Source: Nitrospira defluvii (lineage in GTDB: Bacteria > Nitrospirota > Nitrospiria > Nitrospirales > Nitrospiraceae). From it: 64,000 nucleotides of DNA. Both the position numbers and the translations under genes were made by a program. Location: NCBI GenBank assembly GCA_000196815.1, contig FP929003.1, positions 62,001 through 126,000 on the forward strand. Reading direction: 5' to 3'. Under the pieces are notes generated by a model. That model saw only the letters and a list, made by a program, of their open reading frames with translations, did not search any database and was not told the origin of the DNA. This document shows positions 4,445-39,950 of this stretch, piece by piece (position 1 is the stretch's first letter; each line of letters starts with the position of its first letter).

Positions 4445-5178
4445 TCGACTTCAACTCCTCATCGAGTCTCTCCGGTCAGATCACTGCGCTGGTCGACGCC
4501 GGAATGCAGCAAGCGCGCACGCGTCAGTCCGAACGCCAGTACCTCGGGGCCTCGCGCCTCGGTGTGGCCTGCGAGCGCGCGCTGCAATTCGAGTACGCCA
4601 AGGCTTCCGTCGACCACGGGCGCGACCATTCCGGACGGCTGCTGCGAATTTTCGAACGCGGCCACGTCATGGAGGACTGCATGGTGGCGTGGCTGCGGGA
4701 TGCGGGTTTCGATCTACGCACTCGCAAGGATGACGGCGAGCAGTTCGGTTTCTCGGTGGCCGATGGCCGCCTGCAGGGCCACATCGACGGCGTCATCGTG
4801 GGCGGCCCCGAAGGATTCGCCTATCCCGCGCTCTGGGAATGCAAGTGCTTGGGCAACAAGTCCTGGAGCGATCTGGACAAGAAGGGGCTAGCCATCTCCA
4901 AGCCCGTCTACGCCGCGCAAGTGGCGATCTACCAAGCCTATCTCGAACTGCACGAGCACCCGGCGATCTTCACGGCGCTCAACGCCGACACGATGGAGGT
5001 CTACACCGAGCTCGTGCCCTTTGACGCAGCACTGGCCCAACGTATGTCGGATCGGGCGGTGAAGGTCATCACGGCGACCGAGGCGGGAGAACTCCTGCCG
5101 CGCGCCTTCCATGACTTGACCCACTTTGAATGCCGGATGTGCGCGTGGCAAGACCGCTGCTGGAGGACACAAGCATGA
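4441..5178 (+). CDS. PD-(D/E)XK exonuclease, Cas4/RecB-like, with a probable Fe-S cluster
   Basis: 245 residues. The nuclease core is visible as GHIDGVIV (Asp of motif II, near residue 119) and ALWECKCLG (E-x-K of motif III, near residue 137). Cysteines near the N-terminus (GVACERA) and a C-terminal CxxCx5C (CRMCAWQDRC) match the four-cysteine Fe-S arrangement of Cas4/AddB-type nucleases. Likely a phage 5'-3' exonuclease for recombination, working with the upstream ATPase and SSB-like protein. Four-base overlaps at both ends show coupling. Confidence 0.75.
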   Translation: MIDFNSSSSLSGQITALVDAGMQQARTRQSERQYLGASRLGVACERALQFEYAKASVDHGRDHSGRLLRIFERGHVMEDCMVAWLRDAGFDLRTRKDDGEQFGFSVADGRLQGHIDGVIVGGPEGFAYPALWECKCLGNKSWSDLDKKGLAISKPVYAAQVAIYQAYLELHEHPAIFTALNADTMEVYTELVPFDAALAQRMSDRAVKVITATEAGELLPRAFHDLTHFECRMCAWQDRCWRTQA

Positions 5179-5429
5179 CCGACAACACCAACTCAACCGC
5201 TGGCATCGAACCGATGATCGACGCCAAGCAGGCGGCGGCCGCGCTTCGTCTGCCGTACTACTGGTTCGCCGACCACGCGATGCGCACCAAGTACCGGATT
5301 CCGCACTACTTGATGGGCGGTCTGGTGCGCTACCGGCTTTCCGAGCTCTCTGCGTGGGCTGCTCGCAGCACCGTCGTCCAGGACCGTGATACCGACGACG
5401 CGGATGTACTTGCCGAGGGAGCCGAATGA
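5175..5429 (+). CDS. Small helix-turn-helix protein (excisionase-like)
   Basis: 84 residues. DAKQAAAALRLPYYWF reads as the first helices of an excisionase/MerR-like winged helix, followed by the wing (YRIPHYLMGGLVRYRLSEL) and a final helix. It overlaps the exonuclease stop (ATGA at 5175-5178), and its own stop overlaps the primase start. Architecturally like the 833-1096 protein, but with little sequence similarity by eye. Probably an accessory DNA-binding subunit for replication. Confidence 0.55.
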   Translation: MTDNTNSTAGIEPMIDAKQAAAALRLPYYWFADHAMRTKYRIPHYLMGGLVRYRLSELSAWAARSTVVQDRDTDDADVLAEGAE

Positions 5430-7717
5430 TCGACTTCAACGACACAACACAGCCTGCGGAGCACAACAGGGAATCTGAACGCGACGAGATTCGCGCGGAG
5501 CTGCTTGCGCGTCTGGAATCGGTGCTGACCACGATGTTCCCAGCGGGCAAGAAGCGCCGGGGCAAGTTCCTGATCGGCGACATCCTTGGCAGCCCGGGCG
5601 ACAGCCTCGAAGTGGTACTCGAAGGGGAAAAAGCCGGTCTGTGGACGGATCGCGCAACGGGCGATGGCGGCGACATCTTTGCGCTGATCGCGGCCTACCT
5701 CGGAACCAACGTCCATAGCGACTTTCCTCGGGTACTGGAAGGGGCTGCTGATTTGCTTGGGCGCTCGCGGTCGGTGCCTGTACGCCGAACCAAGAAGGAG
5801 GCCCCGGTCGACGACCTCGGCCCGGCCACGGCCAAGTGGGACTACTTCGATGTCACTGGCAAGCTGATCGCGGTCGTCTACCGCTATGACCCACCGGGTG
5901 GCAAGAAGGAATTCCGCCCGTGGGACGCCAAGCGCCGCAAGATGGCCCCACCGGAGCCGCGTCCGCTGTACAACCAGCCGGGGTTGGCCGCTGCCAGTCA
6001 CGTCGTGCTGGTCGAGGGCGAGAAATGCGCGCAGGCCCTGATCGCCATCGGCGTGGTGGCAACCACGGCCATGCATGGTGCAAATGCTCCCGTCGACAAG
6101 ACCGACTGGTCGCCGCTGGCGGGCAAGTCGGTGCTGATCTGGCCCGACCGCGATGCGCCGGGGTGGGACTACGCCGACCGCGCGTCACAAGCGATCCTGA
6201 ACGCAGGCGCGACCACCGTCGCCATCCTGATGCCACCCGACGACAAGCCTGAGGGCTGGGACGCCGCCGATGCCATCCCGGAAGACTTCGACGTCGGCGG
6301 CTTTCTGGCCGTCGGCGAGCGGATGCCCGTGATGCGCTCGGTGGAGGAAACACCATCTCCTGACTTGCTGAACGGCATCGACTGGACGACGGAGGATGGT
6401 CTGTCCACCGCTTTCACGCGCCGCTATGGCGAGGACTGGCGCTATTGCGCGCTGTGGGGCAAGTGGCTGGTCTGGACGGGGGTGCGCTGGAATCCCGATC
6501 AGGTGCTCTACGTCTCGCACCTCGCACGTGGCATCTGCCGCAACGCATCGCTGAAGGCTGACACACCGAGGCTCAAGGGCAAGCTGGCCAGTTCCGCCAC
6601 CATCTCCTCGGTCGAGAAGATCGCGCGCTCCGATCCGAAGCACGCATCCACCGCTGAGGAATGGGACGCCGACGTCTGGGCGCTCAACACCCCCGGTGGC
6701 GTGGTCGATCTGCGCACGGGCCGGATGCGCCCGCACCGACGCGATGACCGGATGACCAAGGTGACCACGGCCACGCCGCAGGGCAATCCGGACAGCGCCT
6801 GCCCGACGTGGCGGGGGTTCCTGACGGACGTTACCGGTGGCGATGCCGACTTGATGGCCTACCTGCAACTGATGGTCGGCTACTGCCTGACTGGCGTGAC
6901 CAGCGAGCACGCGCTGTTCTTCCTGTACGGCACGGGCGCGAACGGCAAGTCGGTGTTCGTCAACGTGCTGACCACCATTCTGGGCGACTACGCGGCCAAC
7001 GCGCCGATGGACACGTTCATGGAGGCGCGCACCGACCGGCACCCGACCGATCTGGCGGGCCTGCGCGGCGCACGCTTCGTGTCGTCCATCGAAACCGAGC
7101 AAGGGCGACGCTGGAACGAGTCCAAGGTCAAGGCCATCACCGGTGGCGACAAGGTGTCCGCGCGCTTCATGCGCCAGGACTTCTTCGAGTACCTGCCGCA
7201 GTTCAAGTTGGTGATCGCGGGCAACCACAAGCCCTCAATCCGAAACGTGGACGAGGCGATGAAGCGGCGACTGCACCTGATCCCGTTCACGGTGACGATC
7301 CCGCCCGAGCGCCGCGACGGCAGGCTGACCGAAAAGCTGCTCAAGGAACGCGATGGGATTCTGGCGTGGGCGGTCGAGGGCTGCAGCCGCTGGCAACGCC
7401 AGGGCTTGAAGCCGCCCGCCAGCGTGGTGTCGGCGACCGAGGAGTATTTCGAGGCCGAGGACGCGCTCGGGCAGTGGATCGAAGAACGCTGTCTGCTGGC
7501 CAAATCCCACCGCGAAGGCGTCTCCGAACTGTTCGCCGACTGGCGCGAATGGGCCGAACGCGCGGGCGAGTACGTGGGCTCAGTCAAGCGCTTCTCGGAG
7601 CTGATGGCGACTCGTAAGTTCGAGAAGTGTCGGCTGACCGGAGGGGCTCGCGCTATCGCGGGTATCGCCCTCAGGCCCAAGCCGCACAGCAACGCCTACC
7701 CCTACCGCGATGACTGA
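5426..7717 (+). CDS. Phage primase-helicase (TOPRIM + D5/P4-type SF3 helicase)
   Basis: 763 residues. The N-terminal part carries a TOPRIM-like fold (VVLVEGEKCAQAL near 195-207, then IWPDRDAPG near 238-246). The C-terminal part is a superfamily 3 helicase with Walker A GTGANGKSVF near residue 503, then Walker B/sensor segments (VSSIETEQG, KLVIAGNHKP). This is the P4 alpha / D5_N primase-helicase type that opens the phage origin and primes synthesis. No zinc-finger domain is visible at the N-terminus. It ends just before a large inverted repeat that may be part of the origin. Confidence 0.9.
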   Translation: MIDFNDTTQPAEHNRESERDEIRAELLARLESVLTTMFPAGKKRRGKFLIGDILGSPGDSLEVVLEGEKAGLWTDRATGDGGDIFALIAAYLGTNVHSDFPRVLEGAADLLGRSRSVPVRRTKKEAPVDDLGPATAKWDYFDVTGKLIAVVYRYDPPGGKKEFRPWDAKRRKMAPPEPRPLYNQPGLAAASHVVLVEGEKCAQALIAIGVVATTAMHGANAPVDKTDWSPLAGKSVLIWPDRDAPGWDYADRASQAILNAGATTVAILMPPDDKPEGWDAADAIPEDFDVGGFLAVGERMPVMRSVEETPSPDLLNGIDWTTEDGLSTAFTRRYGEDWRYCALWGKWLVWTGVRWNPDQVLYVSHLARGICRNASLKADTPRLKGKLASSATISSVEKIARSDPKHASTAEEWDADVWALNTPGGVVDLRTGRMRPHRRDDRMTKVTTATPQGNPDSACPTWRGFLTDVTGGDADLMAYLQLMVGYCLTGVTSEHALFFLYGTGANGKSVFVNVLTTILGDYAANAPMDTFMEARTDRHPTDLAGLRGARFVSSIETEQGRRWNESKVKAITGGDKVSARFMRQDFFEYLPQFKLVIAGNHKPSIRNVDEAMKRRLHLIPFTVTIPPERRDGRLTEKLLKERDGILAWAVEGCSRWQRQGLKPPASVVSATEEYFEAEDALGQWIEERCLLAKSHREGVSELFADWREWAERAGEYVGSVKRFSELMATRKFEKCRLTGGARAIAGIALRPKPHSNAYPYRDD

Positions 7718-7727
7718 CCAATCCGGG

Positions 7728-7821
7728 CGAGTGACGGATTTGACGGGTTTCCTGATTGACGCGCTACACGTGCGCGCACGTAAAGGACGTTGTCCTGAAA
7801 ACCCGTCGCATCCGTCACTCG
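7728..7821 (+). repeat. Large inverted repeat between primase-helicase and resolvase
   Basis: Two 23-base arms (7728-7750 and 7799-7821) pair at 21 of 23 positions. The 48-base centre holds a perfect 14-base palindrome ACGTGCGCGCACGT (7768-7781) and a second small stem AGGAC/GTCCT just after it. The structure lies in the non-coding gap before the RuvC-like resolvase start and just inside a possible longer N-terminal extension. Candidate replication origin, cruciform or resolvase site; no T-run to make it a terminator. Confidence 0.6.
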
Positions 7822-7844
7822 CCCACCCGAAATGGAGCAAGACG

Positions 7845-8309
7845 ATGAACACAACAATCCTGGCCCTTGATCTGGGCACACACACCGGGTGGGCGTTGCA
7901 GCACCTGGATGGCACCACAACCAGCGGTACCGAGCATTTCAAACCGCAACGATTCGAGGGCGGCGGAATGCGATTCCTTCGATTCAAGCGCTGGCTCAAT
8001 GAACTGCTCTCGACCAGCAACCACATCAACGCGGTCTTCTTTGAGGAAGTCCGACGGCACGCGGGCGTCGATGCGGCGCACGCCTACGGCGGCTTCATGG
8101 GTCATCTGACCGCGTGGTGTGAGCATCACAACATCCCATACCAAGGCGTTCCGGTCGGCACGATCAAGAAGCACGCGACCGGCAAGGGCAATGCGGGCAA
8201 GGAGGAAATGATCGCATCCGTCCGCAAACGTGGTCATGCACCGGCCGACGACAACGAAGCCGACGCGCTGGCCCTGCTGCACTGGGCTGTCGAGACGCAG
8301 GAGGTGTGA
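7845..8309 (+). CDS. RuvC-like Holliday-junction resolvase
   Basis: 154 residues with the RNase H/RuvC pattern: first strand ILALDLGTHTGWAL (catalytic Asp), second acid in VFFEEVRR, and C-terminal acids in ADDNEADALALLHW. This matches the phage RuvC-like resolvases that cut branched DNA before packaging. ATG 7845 is preferred for its GGAG 7 bases upstream and because the family starts just before LALD. An in-frame ATG at 7710 would add 45 residues that merely translate the inverted repeat. Confidence 0.85.
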   Translation: MNTTILALDLGTHTGWALQHLDGTTTSGTEHFKPQRFEGGGMRFLRFKRWLNELLSTSNHINAVFFEEVRRHAGVDAAHAYGGFMGHLTAWCEHHNIPYQGVPVGTIKKHATGKGNAGKEEMIASVRKRGHAPADDNEADALALLHWAVETQEV

Positions 8310-9253: not shown

Positions 9254-10663
9254 TTGAACACACTCAACGTCGAGTACCGCAAGGTCGAGGCGCTGATTCC
9301 CTACGCCCGCAATCCGCGCACGCATACCGAGGATCAGGTGGCCAAGATCGCCGCCAGCATCGTCGAGTACGGCTGGACGAACCCGGTACTGGTGGACGGC
9401 GACAACGGGATCATCGCGGGTCATGGTCGTCTGGCCGCCGCGCGCAAGCTGGGTCTGGATCAGGTGCCGATCATCGAACTGGCCCATCTGTCGCCGACGC
9501 AGAAGCGCGCCTACGTCATCTCCGATAACCGGCTGGCGCTCGACGCGGGTTGGAATGAGGAACTGCTGGCGTTGGAGCTGGCCGAGTTGTCCGAGGCTGG
9601 GTACGACCTTGCTCTGACGGGATTCGAGGATGCCGAGATCGATGCATTGCTCGCAGACGGCGTGGTTTCCGATGACGCAGACCAGGGGCAGGATGCAGAC
9701 GACACGGACACTGCTGATGACGTGCCCGATGCGCCGGTCGTCCCGGTGTCGCGCATCGGCGATGTCTGGGCCATTGGTCAGCACCGCCTGATCTGCGGCG
9801 ATGCTACTGATTCGTCCGTCGTCGCCACGCTGATGCAAGGCGACGCGGCACGGCTCTGCTTCACCTCACCGCCTTACGGCAACCAGCGCGACTACACCTC
9901 CGGCGGCGTCAAGGATTGGGATGGCCTGATGCGCAGCGTGTTCGGCCTTGTGCCGATGGCCGACGACGGCCAGGTACTGGTCAACCTCGGGCTGATCCAT
10001 CGCGACAACGAAGTCATCGCGTATTGGGATGGCTGGCTCGACTGGATGCGCACCCAAGGCTGGCGGCGCTTCGCGTGGTACGTCTGGGATCAGGGGCCGG
10101 GGATGCCCGGCGACTGGCAAGGGCGACTGGCTCCGAGCTTCGAGTTTGTTTTTCACTTCAACCGCGCCAGCCTCAAACCCAACAAGATCGTGCCCTGCAA
10201 GCACGCGGGGCTGGAATCGCATCTGCGCGCCGATGGCTCGTCCACGGCGATGCGTGGCAAGGACGGTGAAGTCGGCGGCTGGACACACAAGGGCCAGCCG
10301 ACGCAGGACACACGGATTCCAGACTCGGTGATCCGCGTGATGCGCCACAAGGGCAAGATCGGTCAGGACATCGACCACCCCGCCGTGTTCCCGGTAGCGC
10401 TGCCGGAGTTCGTGATCGAGGCCTATACGGACACGGGCGACCTCGTGTTCGAACCTTTCGGCGGCAGCGGTACGACGATGCTGGCCGCGCAGCGCACTGG
10501 TCGCGTCTGCCGCACAGTCGAGATCGCACCGGAGTACGTGGACGTCGCCATCAAACGCTTCCAGCAGAACCACCCCGGTGTGCCTGTCACTTTGCTGGCC
10601 ACGGGTCAGTCCTTCGACGACGTGGCCGACGACCGTCTGGTCACCACGGAGGCTGCGCAATGA
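9254..10663 (+). CDS. ParB-like domain fused to a DNA methyltransferase with TSPPY motif
   Basis: 469 residues. Residues ~5-100 form a ParB/sulfiredoxin-like domain (NPRTHTEDQVAKIAASI, then IIAGHGRLAAARKLG). After an acidic linker (~135-165) comes a methyltransferase with motif IV TSPPYG near residue 204 and motif I FEPFGGSGTT near the C-terminus, a beta-class order. SPPY favours an N4-cytosine enzyme. The start is TTG at 9254 with only a weak site, so it is uncertain. It overlaps the next paralogue by 4 bases. Probable role: phage DNA modification against host restriction. Confidence 0.85.
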   Translation: MNTLNVEYRKVEALIPYARNPRTHTEDQVAKIAASIVEYGWTNPVLVDGDNGIIAGHGRLAAARKLGLDQVPIIELAHLSPTQKRAYVISDNRLALDAGWNEELLALELAELSEAGYDLALTGFEDAEIDALLADGVVSDDADQGQDADDTDTADDVPDAPVVPVSRIGDVWAIGQHRLICGDATDSSVVATLMQGDAARLCFTSPPYGNQRDYTSGGVKDWDGLMRSVFGLVPMADDGQVLVNLGLIHRDNEVIAYWDGWLDWMRTQGWRRFAWYVWDQGPGMPGDWQGRLAPSFEFVFHFNRASLKPNKIVPCKHAGLESHLRADGSSTAMRGKDGEVGGWTHKGQPTQDTRIPDSVIRVMRHKGKIGQDIDHPAVFPVALPEFVIEAYTDTGDLVFEPFGGSGTTMLAAQRTGRVCRTVEIAPEYVDVAIKRFQQNHPGVPVTLLATGQSFDDVADDRLVTTEAAQ

Positions 10664-11901
10664 ACGCCTCGTGGTTTGCCGACAAGATCGAGCAATGGCC
10701 GACAGCCAAACTGCTGCCCTATGCTCGCAACGCCCGCACCCACTCGGATGATCAGGTGGCGCAGATTGCAGCATCGATTGCCGAGTTTGGATTCACCAAT
10801 CCGATCCTGGCCGGTAGCGACGGCATCATCGTCGCCGGACACGGGCGGCTCGCCGCCGCTCAGAAACTCGGGTTGGATGTGGTGCCGGTGGTCGTGCTCG
10901 ACCATCTGAGCGCCACGCAGCGCCGGGCGCTGGTGATCGCGGACAACCGCATCGCCGAGAACGCGGGCTGGGACGACGCCATGCTGCGCATCGAGATTGC
11001 AACCCTGCAGGACGATGACTTCGACGTGTCGCTCACCGGCTTCGATGTCGATGCGCTGGCCGAACTGATGGCGGGCGATGAGCCGGACAACGATGGCCAG
11101 AGCGACGAGGATGCGGTGCCGGAGGTTGGTGAGACGCCGATCTCCCGCCCGGGTGATGTCTGGATCATGGGGTCGCACCGCCTACTGTGCGGCGACTCGA
11201 CCGTGGCCGAGAGCTACGACGTTTTGCTGCAGGGCTCGCCGGTGGACATGGTGTTCACCGATCCGCCGTACAACGTGAACTACGCCAACAGCGCCAAGGA
11301 CAAGATGCGCGGCAAGGATCGCGCGATCCTCAACGACAACTTGGGCGACGGCTTCTACGACTTCTTGCTGGCGGCGCTGACCCAGATGGTGACGCACTGC
11401 CGGGGTGGCATCTACGTGGCGATGTCATCCAGCGAACTGGATGTGCTGCAGTCGGCCTTTCGTGCCGCCGGGGGAAAGTGGTCGACCTTCATCATCTGGG
11501 CCAAGAACACTTTTACGCTGGGGCGCGCCGACTATCAGCGCCAGTACGAACCGATCCTGTACGGCTGGCCAGAGGGTGCGCAACGCCATTGGTGCGGTGA
11601 CCGCGACCAGGGCGACGTGTGGAACATCAAGAAGCCGCAGAAGAATGATCTGCACCCGACGATGAAGCCGGTGGAGTTGGTGGAACGGGCGATCCGCAAT
11701 TCGAGCCGCCCCGGCAACGTGGTGCTCGATCCCTTCGGCGGTTCCGGCACGACGCTGATCGCTGCCGAGAAGTCGGGGCGTGTGGCGCGCCTAATTGAAC
11801 TCGATCCGAAGTACGTGGACGTGATTGTGCGCCGGTGGGAGGACTTCACCGGCAAGCAGGCTATCCGCGAGGCGGCAGACCAGGAGGTGTGCGCCAGTTG
11901 A
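10660..11901 (+). CDS. ParB-like domain fused to a DNA methyltransferase with DPPYN motif
   Basis: 413 residues, the same two-domain plan as its upstream neighbour: ParB-like part (IIVAGHGRLAAAQKLG), then a methyltransferase with DPPYN near residue 201 and DPFGGSGTT near residue 350. DPPY favours N6-adenine methylation, so the pair may set two different marks. ATG at 10660 overlaps the previous stop (ATGA). The last 41 bases overlap the end of the convergent gene 11861-12085. The ParB-like domain may aid DNA scanning; that is inference. Confidence 0.85.
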   Translation: MNASWFADKIEQWPTAKLLPYARNARTHSDDQVAQIAASIAEFGFTNPILAGSDGIIVAGHGRLAAAQKLGLDVVPVVVLDHLSATQRRALVIADNRIAENAGWDDAMLRIEIATLQDDDFDVSLTGFDVDALAELMAGDEPDNDGQSDEDAVPEVGETPISRPGDVWIMGSHRLLCGDSTVAESYDVLLQGSPVDMVFTDPPYNVNYANSAKDKMRGKDRAILNDNLGDGFYDFLLAALTQMVTHCRGGIYVAMSSSELDVLQSAFRAAGGKWSTFIIWAKNTFTLGRADYQRQYEPILYGWPEGAQRHWCGDRDQGDVWNIKKPQKNDLHPTMKPVELVERAIRNSSRPGNVVLDPFGGSGTTLIAAEKSGRVARLIELDPKYVDVIVRRWEDFTGKQAIREAADQEVCAS

Positions 11902-35572: not shown

Positions 35573-36430
35573 TTAAACGCCATTCTTGACCGTCTGTATG
35601 TCAAAAAGATTTATCTTATTGATCTTCTCCTCGTGAATCACGATGGTCAGCTTGGCCGGATACTTAAAGCGCATTTCACTGATCCTAAACGTCCAAAGCA
35701 TAATCTTCAGTAAATCCTCGTCACTGATGAGCTTATGCCCCTTGATGCGGGTAATGCCAGAACCGAATATTGTAGTTGACACGCTCCTCTGGCCATAGAT
35801 CGAGTTAACTCTATCCCAGAAATTAATTAAGAACTCCAAATATTCCGGCATAGTAAGCACGGCCTTGTTGTCCTCATCAAACTTACTAAATGCGGCAAGC
35901 AAGAATTCCTCGTAAACACATATTGTTCCGATTTTATACCGCTTTTTCTTTCCGGCTCGCCTGTTTTGATTTTCGCCGATTATCTCATCGTCCTGAAATT
36001 GATAATTCTCAATGTAATTGTCCAAATCAGCGACAGGCGTCTTTAGGATTTGCTTTACAAACATGCCATTGACAGATCTACTGGAGATGACTCTTTCATC
36101 GACCAAGGTGTCAAAGTATTCGTTGAAGGCAATCACCTTAAGCCCCGGCTGCTGAAATATATCCCCAGCAACAACATTAACCTCACTCCCTTCGATGTTG
36201 ATTGATACATTCCTGAGTCGATTAGACCAAACCCACACAGCAATATAGACGACGAGGAATGCTGCCACAAAAGCAGCAGCCTTATACCAAAGGCCATAGC
36301 TCGGCGCGGGCAAGCAGTCTTTTGGTATGTCGACAAATGGAAAAACAAAGGAAAGGAAGACACTTACGGCAGTAGCGTACTTGTAGAAGGTAGCTAATAG
36401 CCGTCGGTCAAAGAAGGCCACCTTTGTCAT
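35573..36430 (-). CDS. thsA: Thoeris type II effector: transmembrane-macro protein (ThsA-like)
   Basis: 285 residues. Two membrane helices (about 18-33 and 49-67) are followed by a macro-like domain: GSEVNVVAGDIFQQPGLKVI, then FNEYFDTLVDERVISSRSVNG near 100-120. This matches the ThsA_Macro (DUF6430) pattern as I know it. In type II Thoeris the macro domain senses an ADP-ribose-type signal made by the TIR partner and the membrane part damages the membrane. It lies 25 bases after thsB. Base composition is clearly AT-richer than the flanks. Confidence 0.8.
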   Translation of the reverse strand: MTKVAFFDRRLLATFYKYATAVSVFLSFVFPFVDIPKDCLPAPSYGLWYKAAAFVAAFLVVYIAVWVWSNRLRNVSINIEGSEVNVVAGDIFQQPGLKVIAFNEYFDTLVDERVISSRSVNGMFVKQILKTPVADLDNYIENYQFQDDEIIGENQNRRAGKKKRYKIGTICVYEEFLLAAFSKFDEDNKAVLTMPEYLEFLINFWDRVNSIYGQRSVSTTIFGSGITRIKGHKLISDEDLLKIMLWTFRISEMRFKYPAKLTIVIHEEKINKINLFDIQTVKNGV

Positions 36431-36455
36431 GCTTCACTTCCCTTCATAAGCACAG

Positions 36456-37025
36456 TCAGGGTTTGTAGAAGAAGACCCCGGAATCTCCTTTGGTTCCCAC
36501 CATGAACTTTGCATTGTTAAGCGCCTTCTCTATCACGGATTTCTTATTCGGCACATGGAGAGTCGGCACGGAACTCATTGAGTCACGAAATATTGGAAGT
36601 TTGTCCCAGAGATTCTTTACTGCTTGCTTGAGGGCCTGATTGTCAGCGGTCAGTAGGTCTGACTCAGATGCATACTCGGGATAGACTACGATGACCGGAA
36701 GACCCTGGTCATTAATTCCGTAGTCGATTTCCTCTCTCAATGCTCGTGAGTTGGCAGTAGTAGAACTCAAGAACAGAACGATATTCTTGGAGTTTCGGAG
36801 GCGCTCCCTCAGTCTAGGCTTCAGAGTCGTTTCCCAATCACTCCCGTCACGTACGTTGTATGTTTTGTCATGAGAGTCATTGAAGGGAAAAACCGAATCC
36901 TGCCCCTTCCACATGCGTAGCTGGTTATAGTAAAAAAAATCGCGCGTAGCGTGAGCACCGAGTGCGCTTGGATTGAAGGGCTCGGTAACATAGAAAGCCG
37001 AGTAGTTGCCGTTTCTATATGCCAT
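36456..37025 (-). CDS. thsB: Thoeris TIR-like signalling protein (ThsB-like, DUF1863)
   Basis: 189 residues. FYYNQLRMWKGQDSVFPFND near 28-47 and LRERLRNSKNIVLFLSSTTANSRALREEIDYG near 75-105 are the MTH538-type TIR-like fold, with the glutamate in REEIDYG in the position of the TIR catalytic acid. ATG 37025 is preferred (GGGAG 5 bases upstream) over GTG 37031. TIR ThsB proteins make an NAD-derived signal upon phage infection. First gene of the pair; transcribed away from the DUF499 operon junction. Confidence 0.82.
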   Translation of the reverse strand: MAYRNGNYSAFYVTEPFNPSALGAHATRDFFYYNQLRMWKGQDSVFPFNDSHDKTYNVRDGSDWETTLKPRLRERLRNSKNIVLFLSSTTANSRALREEIDYGINDQGLPVIVVYPEYASESDLLTADNQALKQAVKNLWDKLPIFRDSMSSVPTLHVPNKKSVIEKALNNAKFMVGTKGDSGVFFYKP

Positions 37026-37041
37026 TGTCACTCCCGTTGAA

Positions 37042-37215
37042 AGTTTGGATTTTGAAAAGTAGATCGCAGACCACGACCGACCGCAGCATCACGAAAGCCG
37101 ACCGGTATTTGCCCGCCGTGTAGCAGCTCAATACCTCGGAGAATTATTCCCTGCTGCGCGCATCGAAGATTTGACTCGCGCGCTGTTCTATCGAGTACTC
37201 GTCCAGCATCGTCAT
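37042..37215 (-). pseudogene. Decayed next gene of the defence operon, cut at the Thoeris junction
   Basis: On the minus strand an ATG at 37215 overlaps the helicase stop (ATGA), exactly like a coupled operon gene. It reads DEYSIEQRASQIFDARSRE, then TAA (37144-37146), and continues in the same frame as FSEVLSCYTAGKYRSAFVM and on to VVVCDLLFKIQ. This looks like the start of a conserved helical protein in which a Tyr-like codon became a stop. Protein-like sequence ends where the Thoeris gene begins. Family unknown; I recall similar starts in hypothetical proteins. Confidence 0.65.
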
Positions 37216-39950
37216 CCCGTCCAAGCCGTAGTCATCAGCACTGCGAAGTCTCGCCGTGACAGCACCTCGGAACAATCCCGCCAGTCTTTCTCCGGTGGCT
37301 CCATCGTGCCCGTATAGCGCAGGTCAAATCCCGTCGCCTCTTTCTGAGCATTGATGAACTCGTCCATCTTTTCCCCGAGGGTCTCGATGTCCTCGATCCA
37401 TTCGTCCTTGATAGTGTCAGGGACTGATCCAAACAAGTCGTAGCGATTGCGCATCCGCTCCGACAGGCGTTCGTAGATCTTCTCGTCCACGGTTTGCTCA
37501 TTCACTAGGTTGAGCATATCCACGGTTTCGCGCTTCTGGCCGAAGCGCTTGATGCGTCCGATCCTCTGTTCGAGGCGAGTCGGATTCCACGGCAAATCAA
37601 TATTGATCAAGGTGCCCAGCGTTTGAAGGTTGAGACCTTCGCAGGCCGCATCTGTAGCAACCATGATGCGGATCTCGTGTTCAGCCACCATTTTTTTGAG
37701 CGTTTCCCGCTCGCACGTCACGCTATCGCCACGTTGATACAAACGACTGCGGCCTGCACCAGCGTACAGGCCAATTGCCTCATCCGGGTACCGCGCAGCT
37801 AACTCGTCGGCGACCCACTTTGCCGTGTCGTAGTACTGACTGAAGATAATGACCCCGAGCTCGCGCCACTTTTCTTTTTCCAGGTAATGGATAACGGCGT
37901 TGAGTTTTGGGTCTTCCTCAATGTGCTCTAGGCGACTGATCAGCCGGAGCAAAACCTCGCGCTCTTCGCCGCTTTCAACCTTCAGATCACCTTCTTGCTC
38001 ATCTTCCTCTTGGTGGATCGTCCGGCCCTCCAAAAGCATCCTGGCGGTACTGAGTCCTGCCTGAATGCTGGAGCAAATGCGTTGCTCCATGAGGTTTTTC
38101 ATGAACCCGCCGCCCTTGCCGCGCTTACCGAGTGCCTTACCAAACAAGCGCGCCTCTCGATAGGCTTCACGGAAGTTCTCATTGGTTCGCAGGGCCTTGG
38201 CTTCAAATAGCGCATCGAACCAACGTGGGTCGCCTACAAGCTGGCGATTTGGATGAACGTCGACACCGACCTTAGTCAACAGTCCAGCCTCTTCGAGGCT
38301 GACGCGTTTGCGCAATACGACGTGACGCACCAATGGATTCTCTCGCTGGAATAGGGTGGCACCCGAAATTCGGCGCTCCAACTCATCTTCCAGGATCTCC
38401 CGGGTATCCTCCGTCAGATCTGTAGCTGTCTTGGTGGTTTGCCATTCCCCGTTGACAAGCCCCAAGTCCTGACGAATAGCGCTGAACAGCTTTCTCGCTC
38501 GCGGTTCTTGGGTGGAGTCAACCAGTGGTAAAGGCGATCTCAGCAGTTGCCAAGCAAATCCAACATCAGTGACCTCTTGCTCCCCGGAAAGGATAGGCAG
38601 CACTTCACGAGGCCGGTGCCACGGCGCAAAGTCATTGCCGAGGACAAAGTTGCCTTTGCCTTGATGGAGAATGCCGATCAAGTCCCATAAGTCCTCGGGC
38701 TGGGTCTGAACCGGCGTCGCAGTGCCCAGAAGAACGTGATCTGAGCGCGCCGCAATCTCACGCATGAACGCTAGCAGTTCATTCGGGGAGCCTGCATCCT
38801 TGCCAAAGCCTTGGCGACTGCGCGCCTTGTGGGCTTCATCAAGGATGACCAAACCGAATCGCAGGCCCAGGAGGTGCTGTTTCTCCAGGGAGTCCCGCAT
38901 CATCAGGCCAGTGGAGACAATCCCAATCCGCAAGGGGCACTTGGCTATCTGCTCGCGGCCTGCAGGTGAGATTACGCGTTCATCAGTGTCCAGCCAAACC
39001 TTGCGCAAGGTGTCCCAGCGCGCACAGGGGATCGCCAGCTTATCGATCATCTCTGTCTGCCATTGTTCGCACAGGGTGGCCGGAGCAAAGATCACCACTG
39101 GCTTGCGCGCCTGGTTTTCTCGATCCGCCAGCAAACAAAGTGTCAGCGCTGCGGTACCGAGGGACAGCGTCTTTCCGAGCCCCACCTCATCGGCCAGCAG
39201 CAGCCTCACTACTTTGTGCTGTTGGTGGTGGCGCAGGCACTCGGTGATAAACCCCTGCTGCCAAGGCTGTAGAGACAATCCCTCGCGGTAAAGAGGCGAT
39301 TCGATTAAGGCCGCTGGTGCGAGATTCTCCTCTTCGTCGATCTCGTCGAAGAACACCTCGCGGCGGTAGCCACGCCGATGGACCTCCCGGATGACCACCT
39401 GCGGAAGCGGTCGAGCCGCATTCCACAAAAACTCGAACTCTTCCTCAATCCAGGCGACCCCCTCGGGGGACTCGTCTTCCCACAATATCTCGTAGTGCCG
39501 CTGCCAGCCGCTGCGGGTCTCATTCATCGAGCCGATGAAGCCCAACTTGCGGCCGTCAGCCAGCTCGATGACTCCCGCCTTACCATGCACGAAGCCGCAG
39601 ATGTTGTCTGGAGCCACGCGCACGGCCTGACCATGCTTCTGCAAGAAGGTGTCTAAGCGACGGTAGCGATCTCGATTGAGCAAGGCCTCTGCTTCGATAG
39701 CCTTCTCGTTCCAACGCCCCATCATCTTGGCTTCGCGTAGCTGCGCCACCTTCAGATCGTCGGGGTGGATGTCCACGTTGCAGACAATCTTGACCTCAGG
39801 AATGGTCTCCAGCAGTTCGTTGGCGACCTCAAACAGCGAGCTTGTGAAGTAGCCAGCGATACGCTTATAGCTGCGAGCCCCCTGCAGATGCTGCAACAGG
39901 AAGCTCGCGTCGAGCCGATGGGTCCGGGAGGAGAAGCGCCGGATCGACAT
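37212..39950 (-). CDS. SNF2-type helicase with N-terminal phospholipase D-like domain (defence operon)
   Basis: 912 residues. Residues ~1-185 form a PLD-like nuclease half: FVHGKAGVIELADGRKLGFIGSMNETRSG carries the H-x-K and GSMN parts of a HKD-type site. The SNF2 helicase follows: Walker A ADEVGLGKT near 253, DEAH in ILDEAHKAR near 373, and the C-terminal lobe with ATDAACEGLNLQ and QRIGRIKRFGQK near 780-810. It would translocate on and perhaps cut phage DNA. It lies 4 bases after the methyltransferase gene, with a weak ribosome site. Confidence 0.85.
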   Translation of the reverse strand: MSIRRFSSRTHRLDASFLLQHLQGARSYKRIAGYFTSSLFEVANELLETIPEVKIVCNVDIHPDDLKVAQLREAKMMGRWNEKAIEAEALLNRDRYRRLDTFLQKHGQAVRVAPDNICGFVHGKAGVIELADGRKLGFIGSMNETRSGWQRHYEILWEDESPEGVAWIEEEFEFLWNAARPLPQVVIREVHRRGYRREVFFDEIDEEENLAPAALIESPLYREGLSLQPWQQGFITECLRHHQQHKVVRLLLADEVGLGKTLSLGTAALTLCLLADRENQARKPVVIFAPATLCEQWQTEMIDKLAIPCARWDTLRKVWLDTDERVISPAGREQIAKCPLRIGIVSTGLMMRDSLEKQHLLGLRFGLVILDEAHKARSRQGFGKDAGSPNELLAFMREIAARSDHVLLGTATPVQTQPEDLWDLIGILHQGKGNFVLGNDFAPWHRPREVLPILSGEQEVTDVGFAWQLLRSPLPLVDSTQEPRARKLFSAIRQDLGLVNGEWQTTKTATDLTEDTREILEDELERRISGATLFQRENPLVRHVVLRKRVSLEEAGLLTKVGVDVHPNRQLVGDPRWFDALFEAKALRTNENFREAYREARLFGKALGKRGKGGGFMKNLMEQRICSSIQAGLSTARMLLEGRTIHQEEDEQEGDLKVESGEEREVLLRLISRLEHIEEDPKLNAVIHYLEKEKWRELGVIIFSQYYDTAKWVADELAARYPDEAIGLYAGAGRSRLYQRGDSVTCERETLKKMVAEHEIRIMVATDAACEGLNLQTLGTLINIDLPWNPTRLEQRIGRIKRFGQKRETVDMLNLVNEQTVDEKIYERLSERMRNRYDLFGSVPDTIKDEWIEDIETLGEKMDEFINAQKEATGFDLRYTGTMEPPEKDWRDCSEVLSRRDFAVLMTTAWTG

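Follow-up and report, generated by a model that had tools for sequence, protein, structure and literature searches.

A probable SF3-initiator-type replication origin with a conserved alternating purine/pyrimidine centre in a prophage of Nitrospira defluvii

Introduction

Origins situated directly behind the gene of their own initiator have been described for several mobile elements. In PICIs the origin lies immediately 3′ of pri-rep and consists of an AT-rich region with a set of iterons on either side; that of EcCICFT073 was tested on a plasmid (PMC6092414). SaPI Rep and SCCmec Cch2 bind, through their C-terminal domain, iterons located just downstream of their own gene; binding by Cch2 survives deletion of inverted repeats and is abolished by deletion of direct repeats (PMC7581432). 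In phage P4 the crr region, which is required for replication and whose tandem repeats at 9-bp spacing are of type 1, is present in two copies in addition to a distant origin (ori1), and the SF3 primase-helicase (alpha) carries a C-terminal winged-helix origin-binding domain. Plasmid pRN1 depends on a stem-loop of 100 bp located 3′ of its SF3 prim-pol gene, and the authors of that work suggest an origin of this kind for the Bordetella phage BIP-1 as well; the structure rather than the sequence is reported to be kept, and iterons are denied (PMC4234260).

An inverted repeat in a prophage of N. defluvii, found in a stretch of 64 000 nucleotides (the window) that is part of a chromosome-sized contig, resembles these systems in some respects and departs from them in others. 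Like P4 crr, it stands directly 3′ of an SF3 primase-helicase gene and contains a tandem iteron pair at a 9-bp period followed by inverted repeats across the centre, and the neighbouring protein ends in a winged helix (modelled here). Unlike crr, which has an AT-rich centre with a longest alternating purine/pyrimidine run of 7 and TGTTCACC iterons, it carries TGAC-type boxes, and no counterpart of the second crr copy or of ori1 was found in the window. With the PICI and SaPI origins it shares the position right after the initiator and the two iteron sets around a centre; that centre is described there as AT-rich, whereas here it is GC-rich and alternating, in a prophage related to AcaML1. An inverted repeat of about 100 bp 3′ of an SF3 replication gene is also common to pRN1 and BIP-1, but in the present element the iterons are letter-specific and covary with the winged helix. 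On inspection by eye, no dyad of this kind was seen in the BPP-1 region. A query comprising the primase and RuvC genes was 97% covered by Acidithiobacillus phage AcaML1 at 70% DNA identity; AcaML1 has the same gene order, and its corresponding gap holds a dyad with an alternating tract of 20 nt; its winged helix is of another subclass, and no origin is annotated in the AcaML1 stretch examined.

An earlier note on this DNA had proposed that the nested repeat is an origin, a resolvase substrate or an attenuator. Here, we argue that the element is very probably the replication origin of the prophage, of the SF3-initiator kind and new in its centre. This reading is drawn from the dyad 3′ of the SF3 gene, the covariation of iterons and winged helix, the selected alternating tract, the exchange of the helicase in some relatives and the precedent of P4, PICI and SaPI.

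Materials and methods

The RuvC protein served to gather relatives, which gave 79 loci on genome contigs and 80 on viral contigs. Four of 161 loci (L030, L079, L085 and L143) were left out for missing upstream sequence, leaving 157, AcaML1 and the window counted in. A D5-type primase reaching residue 740 is present in 133 of these; the other 24 were set aside, among them the fragment L083 and two loci, L016 and L101, in which the element is present but the primase frame is broken. The automatic dyad test demanded a span of 80–112 and a score of at least 9. From the host's own order 11 D5/VapE loci were fetched, the window's own included; L444, L445, L446 and L449 contain no + strand ORF of 400 amino acids and so fall outside the comparison.

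Viral contigs were searched with the iteron letters alone (letter-specific scans), and class-agnostic scans used TGAC boxes plus 18 alternating bases; the latter demanded alternation and hence give no measure of the frequency of the tract outside the phage group. Among the matches listed, 250 of the 261 loci pooled from both kinds of scan carry the pattern. Some scan loci share contigs with the RuvC-gathered loci, and the sets are not independent.

For the covariation analysis, three of 40 rows (L053, L084 and L148) were excluded as other classes, giving 37 proteins in three iteron classes. L050 was assigned by hand to GCA; L117, L161, L008 and L054 were assigned by rule to GGAT, and L046 to CGA. 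Substitutions were counted over 43 pairs of relatives sharing no member, and pairs whose first member has a tract shorter than 14 were skipped.

Results

Organization of the element

The inverted repeat is larger than first reported. The arms of 23 bases at 21/23 identity described in the earlier note are exact (7728–7750 against 7799–7821), and they extend to arms of 26 bases, 24 of them paired, at 7725–7824. The primase-helicase stop codon and the RuvC-like gene are 127 nt apart; within this gap the element starts 7 nt past the stop codon, immediately 3′ of the predicted initiator gene, as is characteristic of SF3 origins. The features are as follows.

5426–7717, + strand: primase-helicase gene with D5_N and DUF5906 (SF3 helicase) domains and a C-terminal winged helix, predicted initiator (Pfam, PHROG, structure models)
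7433–7714, + strand: codons of residues 670–763, the winged-helix domain covarying with the iterons (covariation, trees, structure model)
7725–7824, no strand: whole dyad element, predicted origin (sequence, relatives)
7732–7739, + strand: left outer iteron TGACGGAT (iteron search)
7741–7748, + strand: left inner iteron TGACGGGT, 9-bp period (iteron search)
7765–7782, no strand: alternating pyrimidine/purine tract TACACGTGCGCGCACGTA (the only run of at least 15 in the window)
7784–7796, no strand: small stem AGGAC-GTT-GTCCT, not conserved (sequence, relatives' sequences)
7801–7808, − strand: right inner iteron, degenerate, CGACGGGT (sequence, arm comparison)
7810–7817, − strand: right outer iteron TGACGGAT (iteron search)
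7845–8309, + strand: RuvC-like resolvase gene, a neighbour (PHROG phrog_159; no tie to iteron class)

The element thus contains two inverted sets of tandem iterons, a second trait of SF3 origins (P4 was compared), and also a stem-loop 3′ of an SF3 replication gene, as in origins of the pRN1 type. Each arm consists of two direct TGAC-type boxes, spaced by 9 bp in most classes and by 10 bp in others, and the letters after TGAC vary among phages (GGAT, GCAG/GCAT, CGAA and rarer ones). The perfect 14-base palindrome noted previously, ACGTGCGCGCACGT, is found at 7768–7781. The small stem is likewise present at the place described, but it is not retained in the sequences of relatives. That the symmetry is not due to chance was borne out by folding: the z-scores of the segment are −6.6 (DNA) and −6.7 (RNA), and none of 200 shuffles was equally stable. 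Two occurrences of the arm motif were counted in the window and none in 100 shuffles.

The element is single-copy in the 4.3-Mb host genome, where no further copy was found as a repeat. Elsewhere in the window TGACGGRT occurs six times (4.8 expected) and forms no second iteron cluster, so that no P4-like second origin is seen there. The GC skew of the window has a weak local minimum only, near 4–6 kb, and was not counted as evidence. Rfam gave only sub-threshold microRNA-like or snoRNA-like matches to the element, and a real RNA family was rejected, these matches being taken as chance. The upstream protein belongs to the PHROG 'DNA primase', and a Pfam search of the downstream RuvC-like protein returned no match.

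Conservation among relatives

The dyad test was passed by 127 of the 133 D5-type loci; the repeat is thus neither absent nor degenerate in close relatives, the outcome that the earlier note had named as fatal to its proposal. The failures are L095 and five loci whose sequences still show a weaker dyad (L050–L052, L053 and L156). An alternating run of at least 14 is present in 125 of the 133 (the exceptions being L046, L053, L054, L057, L095 and L137–L139). L095, with a gap of 56 nt before RuvC, is the sole D5 locus of the 133 without a trace of the element, possibly owing to assembly loss or to a dead prophage.

Among the loci from the host's order, L440, L441 and L447 have dyads or repeats and no alternating run of 14, which indicates that the tract is not universal; in L439, L443 and L448 no clear iteron dyad and no long run was seen. 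Just downstream of the primase in nine distant D5 phages (TM4, Milly, Shadow1, B025, Javan40, Lilbooboo, Cassia, Rollins and RemusLoopin) no run exceeds 9, and inverted repeats or tandem iterons lacking the tract occur just 3′ of the D5 primases of Milly (L168), TM4 (L169), Shadow1 (L175), Listeria B025 (L170) and Javan40 (L171). The actinophage repeats at this position overlap an annotated small ORF. In L260 the element is found twice in tandem (4815–4899 and 4933–5017, 118 bp apart), which recalls the two 120-bp copies of P4 crr.

Iteron letters and the winged-helix domain

Comparison of the same gap in relatives, which the earlier note had recommended, revealed that the iteron letters change together with the winged helix at the C-terminus of the primase-helicase and follow none of the other sequences tested. 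With classes drawn after the sequences had been inspected, residues 681–763 separate same-class from different-class pairs with an AUC of 0.93, and the 32 best class-associated columns of the whole protein all fall within residues 677–763. The remaining parts of the primase-helicase give 0.54–0.67, and RuvC gives 0.56–0.58, though its gene starts about 20 nt from the element. On trees, the iteron class changes five times for the C-terminus, compared with eight for residues 1–320, 12 for residues 321–640, 11 for residues 1–640 and 11 for RuvC. In some phages residues 1–640 are 87–89% identical, yet the C-terminal domain is only 36–46% identical and the iterons differ.

Residue 721, located in the predicted recognition helix (codon 7586–7588), is lysine in 15 of 15 GGAT-class proteins and arginine in 11 of 12 of the GCA class (the exception is L060), while L008 and L054 combine a GCA-like domain with Lys721 and GGAT iterons. 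In this exploratory comparison of post hoc classes, the residue looks like a specificity residue in a recognition helix.

The C-terminal domain alone was modelled as a winged helix (pLDDT 87) with the H-E-H-H-E-E order of that fold. Structurally it matches RFX winged helices (Z = 9.8 and 9.3), the C-terminus of ASFV PrimPol and the P4 origin-binding domain 1ka8 (Z = 7.5, 76 residues aligned, r.m.s.d. 3.2); at the sequence level, a profile of the winged helix gave no significant match in the PDB. The winged-helix codons adjoin the element, and the covariation could therefore be partly co-transfer by linkage. RuvC, equally near on the other side, lacks the covariation, but asymmetric breakpoints may also produce such a pattern. 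From the covariation and the modelled fold, we infer that the winged helix binds the four iterons, and the RuvC-like protein is probably not the binder of the element.

The alternating tract at the centre

Over 40 non-redundant gaps the longest alternating run is 20.3 nt on average, whereas it averages 7.5 nt in windows placed at random in these loci; a tract of 14–28 nt is present in 36 of the 40 relatives. The centre of the dyad coincides with that of the tract (offset −1.4, s.d. 2.6 nt; 34 elements). Palindromy of the tract is 5.8, against 5.7 in shuffles that keep the alternation, and the 14-base palindrome is therefore a by-product of alternation; a hairpin formed by the tract was rejected on the same grounds. 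The nested symmetry described earlier thus stands as regards the dyad, while the property conserved in the palindrome is its alternation.

Substitutions within the tract comprise 41 transitions and five transversions, compared with 182 and 207 outside it (Fisher 1.3e-8). A mutational cause of this excess was considered and rejected, since fourfold primase sites in a locally alternating context in the same phages give 86 transitions and 179 transversions (2.6e-13 versus the tract). Judged from these sequence comparisons, selection is acting on alternation, not palindromy, and the letters change while the alternation stays.

The GC content of the tract follows that of the locus (r = 0.58) and is higher on average (0.68 versus 0.63, 36 tracts), unlike the AT-rich melting centre of the known SF3 origins, P4 crr and PICI. 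An alternating pyrimidine-purine run is the sequence feature expected of a Z-DNA-forming tract. Within it AT steps are depleted (three, 14 expected) and TA steps are not (20, 16 expected); the latter is neutral to slightly against Z-DNA and fits flexible pyrimidine-purine steps at least as well. Helical phasing of the span with tract length was rejected (correlation −0.02). Our literature searches turned up no SF3-type origin with a reported alternating or Z-DNA tract.

The gene with which the element travels

The letter-specific scans yielded 87 elements, of which 85 have a primase within 300 nt, 84 have RuvC and 85 have an alternating run of at least 14; the two without a primase lie close to contig ends. 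Among the matches listed in the pooled scans, an SF3 helicase lies within 300 nt of 240 of 250 elements (D5 in 233, VapE in seven), always with the element on its 3′ side (240 of 240), and a RuvC relative lies within 300 nt of 197 (193 + 4). Of the ten listed loci with no SF3 match, seven are near a contig end (L247, L371, L373, L374, L401, L411 and L416), four of these adjoining RuvC, and L267, L316 and L435 have interior elements with no SF3 match within 300 nt. The element of L267 (13300–13407) is low in GC and has an AT/TG alternating centre. According to Pfam searches of selected neighbours, the helicase is fused to Prim-Pol, CHC2, Toprim or no recognized primase domain.

The D5 helicase half is missing from 21 loci that share RuvC; 18 of them also share the N-terminal half of the primase (53–56% identity) and three have no primase match. 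In the two tested, the helicase half is AAA_25. In these 21 loci RuvC is preceded by two to nine TTGGCA/TGCCAA boxes, and no alternating run exceeds 8; each of the 133 D5 loci has at most one TTGGCA-type box. By this comparison the element is changing along with the helicase, not with RuvC. Arrays of the CAGTTGGCA box, often accompanied by a CTCCTACTACGTAGGAG palindrome, precede RuvC in L037–L043, L045, L047–L049, L066, L157–L160, L163–L165 and L167; the box-array loci, with the N-terminal half of the primase and another helicase, probably possess a different type of origin.

Discussion

Of the three functions offered in the earlier note, the origin gains strong support from the SF3 helicase near almost every listed element and from the winged-helix covariation; the other two fare badly. 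The long inverted repeat beside a resolvase gene and the 197 listed elements close to a RuvC relative speak for a cruciform or Holliday-junction substrate that the neighbouring RuvC-like enzyme would cut, perhaps in order to linearize or resolve replication products. A RuvC substrate site should, however, be constantly tied to the resolvase gene, and 53 of the 250 listed elements have no RuvC within 300 nt; the gene downstream of an element can be one for a terminase, portal protein, methylase or AbiEii. In addition, the RuvC letters do not track iteron class, the palindromy of the centre is explained by alternation alone and phages with another helicase half keep RuvC while replacing the element. 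No cruciform is needed to account for the arms, and this reading is most improbable. So is an RNA element between the primase and RuvC cistrons, whether attenuator, terminator or processing hairpin, despite a predicted transcript fold of −62 kcal/mol: no terminator-like site and no GC stem followed by a T-run is present in 7500–8100, the iteron letters follow a DNA-binding domain and it is not evident what purpose strict purine/pyrimidine alternation would serve in RNA. An RNA stem should moreover prefer G·U, and the first 20 arm pairs of 40 elements, two misregistered rows (L050 and L060) included, comprise 684 Watson–Crick pairs, 30 G·T, 29 A·C and 57 other mismatches. This lack of a G·T excess over A·C argues against a hairpin of either RNA or single-stranded DNA, and the arms appear to behave as duplex protein sites.

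A single-strand origin, in which the primase reads a hairpin on exposed single-stranded DNA as in the pRN1 stem-loop models, has the precedent of pRN1 itself. It is nevertheless unlikely here, given that the mismatches show no wobble bias, that each arm holds tandem direct iterons and that the winged helix rather than the primase domain covaries; the pRN1 pattern of conserved structure with free letters is not what the element displays, as its iterons are repeated, G·T and A·C are balanced and the tract is palindromic only through alternation. Inverted tandem sites in intergenic gaps are also typical of operators, and the element might be no origin but the binding site of a transcription factor, perhaps a repressor or the primase itself. 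We regard such an operator as very unlikely: no promoter-like site was found, the covarying partner is the initiator helicase, the listed sites lie 3′ of the helicase regardless of the following gene, and at this position PICI and SaPI have their origin and P4 has a region that replication requires.

For the replication origin, the following mechanism may be envisaged. The winged helix of the primase-helicase would dock on the four iterons, and two SF3 hexamers would assemble face to face on the dyad. The alternating tract would ease distortion of the duplex, either by left-handed flipping or through dense flexible pyrimidine-purine steps, whereupon the helicases would open the DNA, primers would be made and two forks would depart. 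RuvC is probably a co-transcribed neighbour that acts on replication intermediates rather than on the element. A more specific and distinctly tentative proposal is that selection in many SF3-helicase phages keeps a strictly alternating tract of 14–28 bp, whatever its letters, at the centre of the origin because the tract turns into left-handed Z-DNA, or undergoes an equivalent distortion, as the two opposed hexamers load. If it were true, a GC-rich conformational switch would replace the AT-rich melting site of the P4 and PICI origins.

In hundreds of viral contigs and prophages, the signature described here points to the probable origin. The pairing of iteron class with winged-helix residues offers a natural recognition code that is open to direct test. 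The tract, in turn, is a tractable genetic case of selection on purine/pyrimidine alternation itself, which makes the old question of whether Z-DNA-prone sequence has a role in bacterial replication accessible to experiment.

Two minor observations concern the wider window. The GC content falls to 0.505 at 36001–38000 and is lower thereafter, which may mark the end of the prophage or an inserted segment. Similar ORFs lie in tandem at 9254–10663 and 10660–11901, and their AcaML1 counterparts are annotated as DNA modification methylases.
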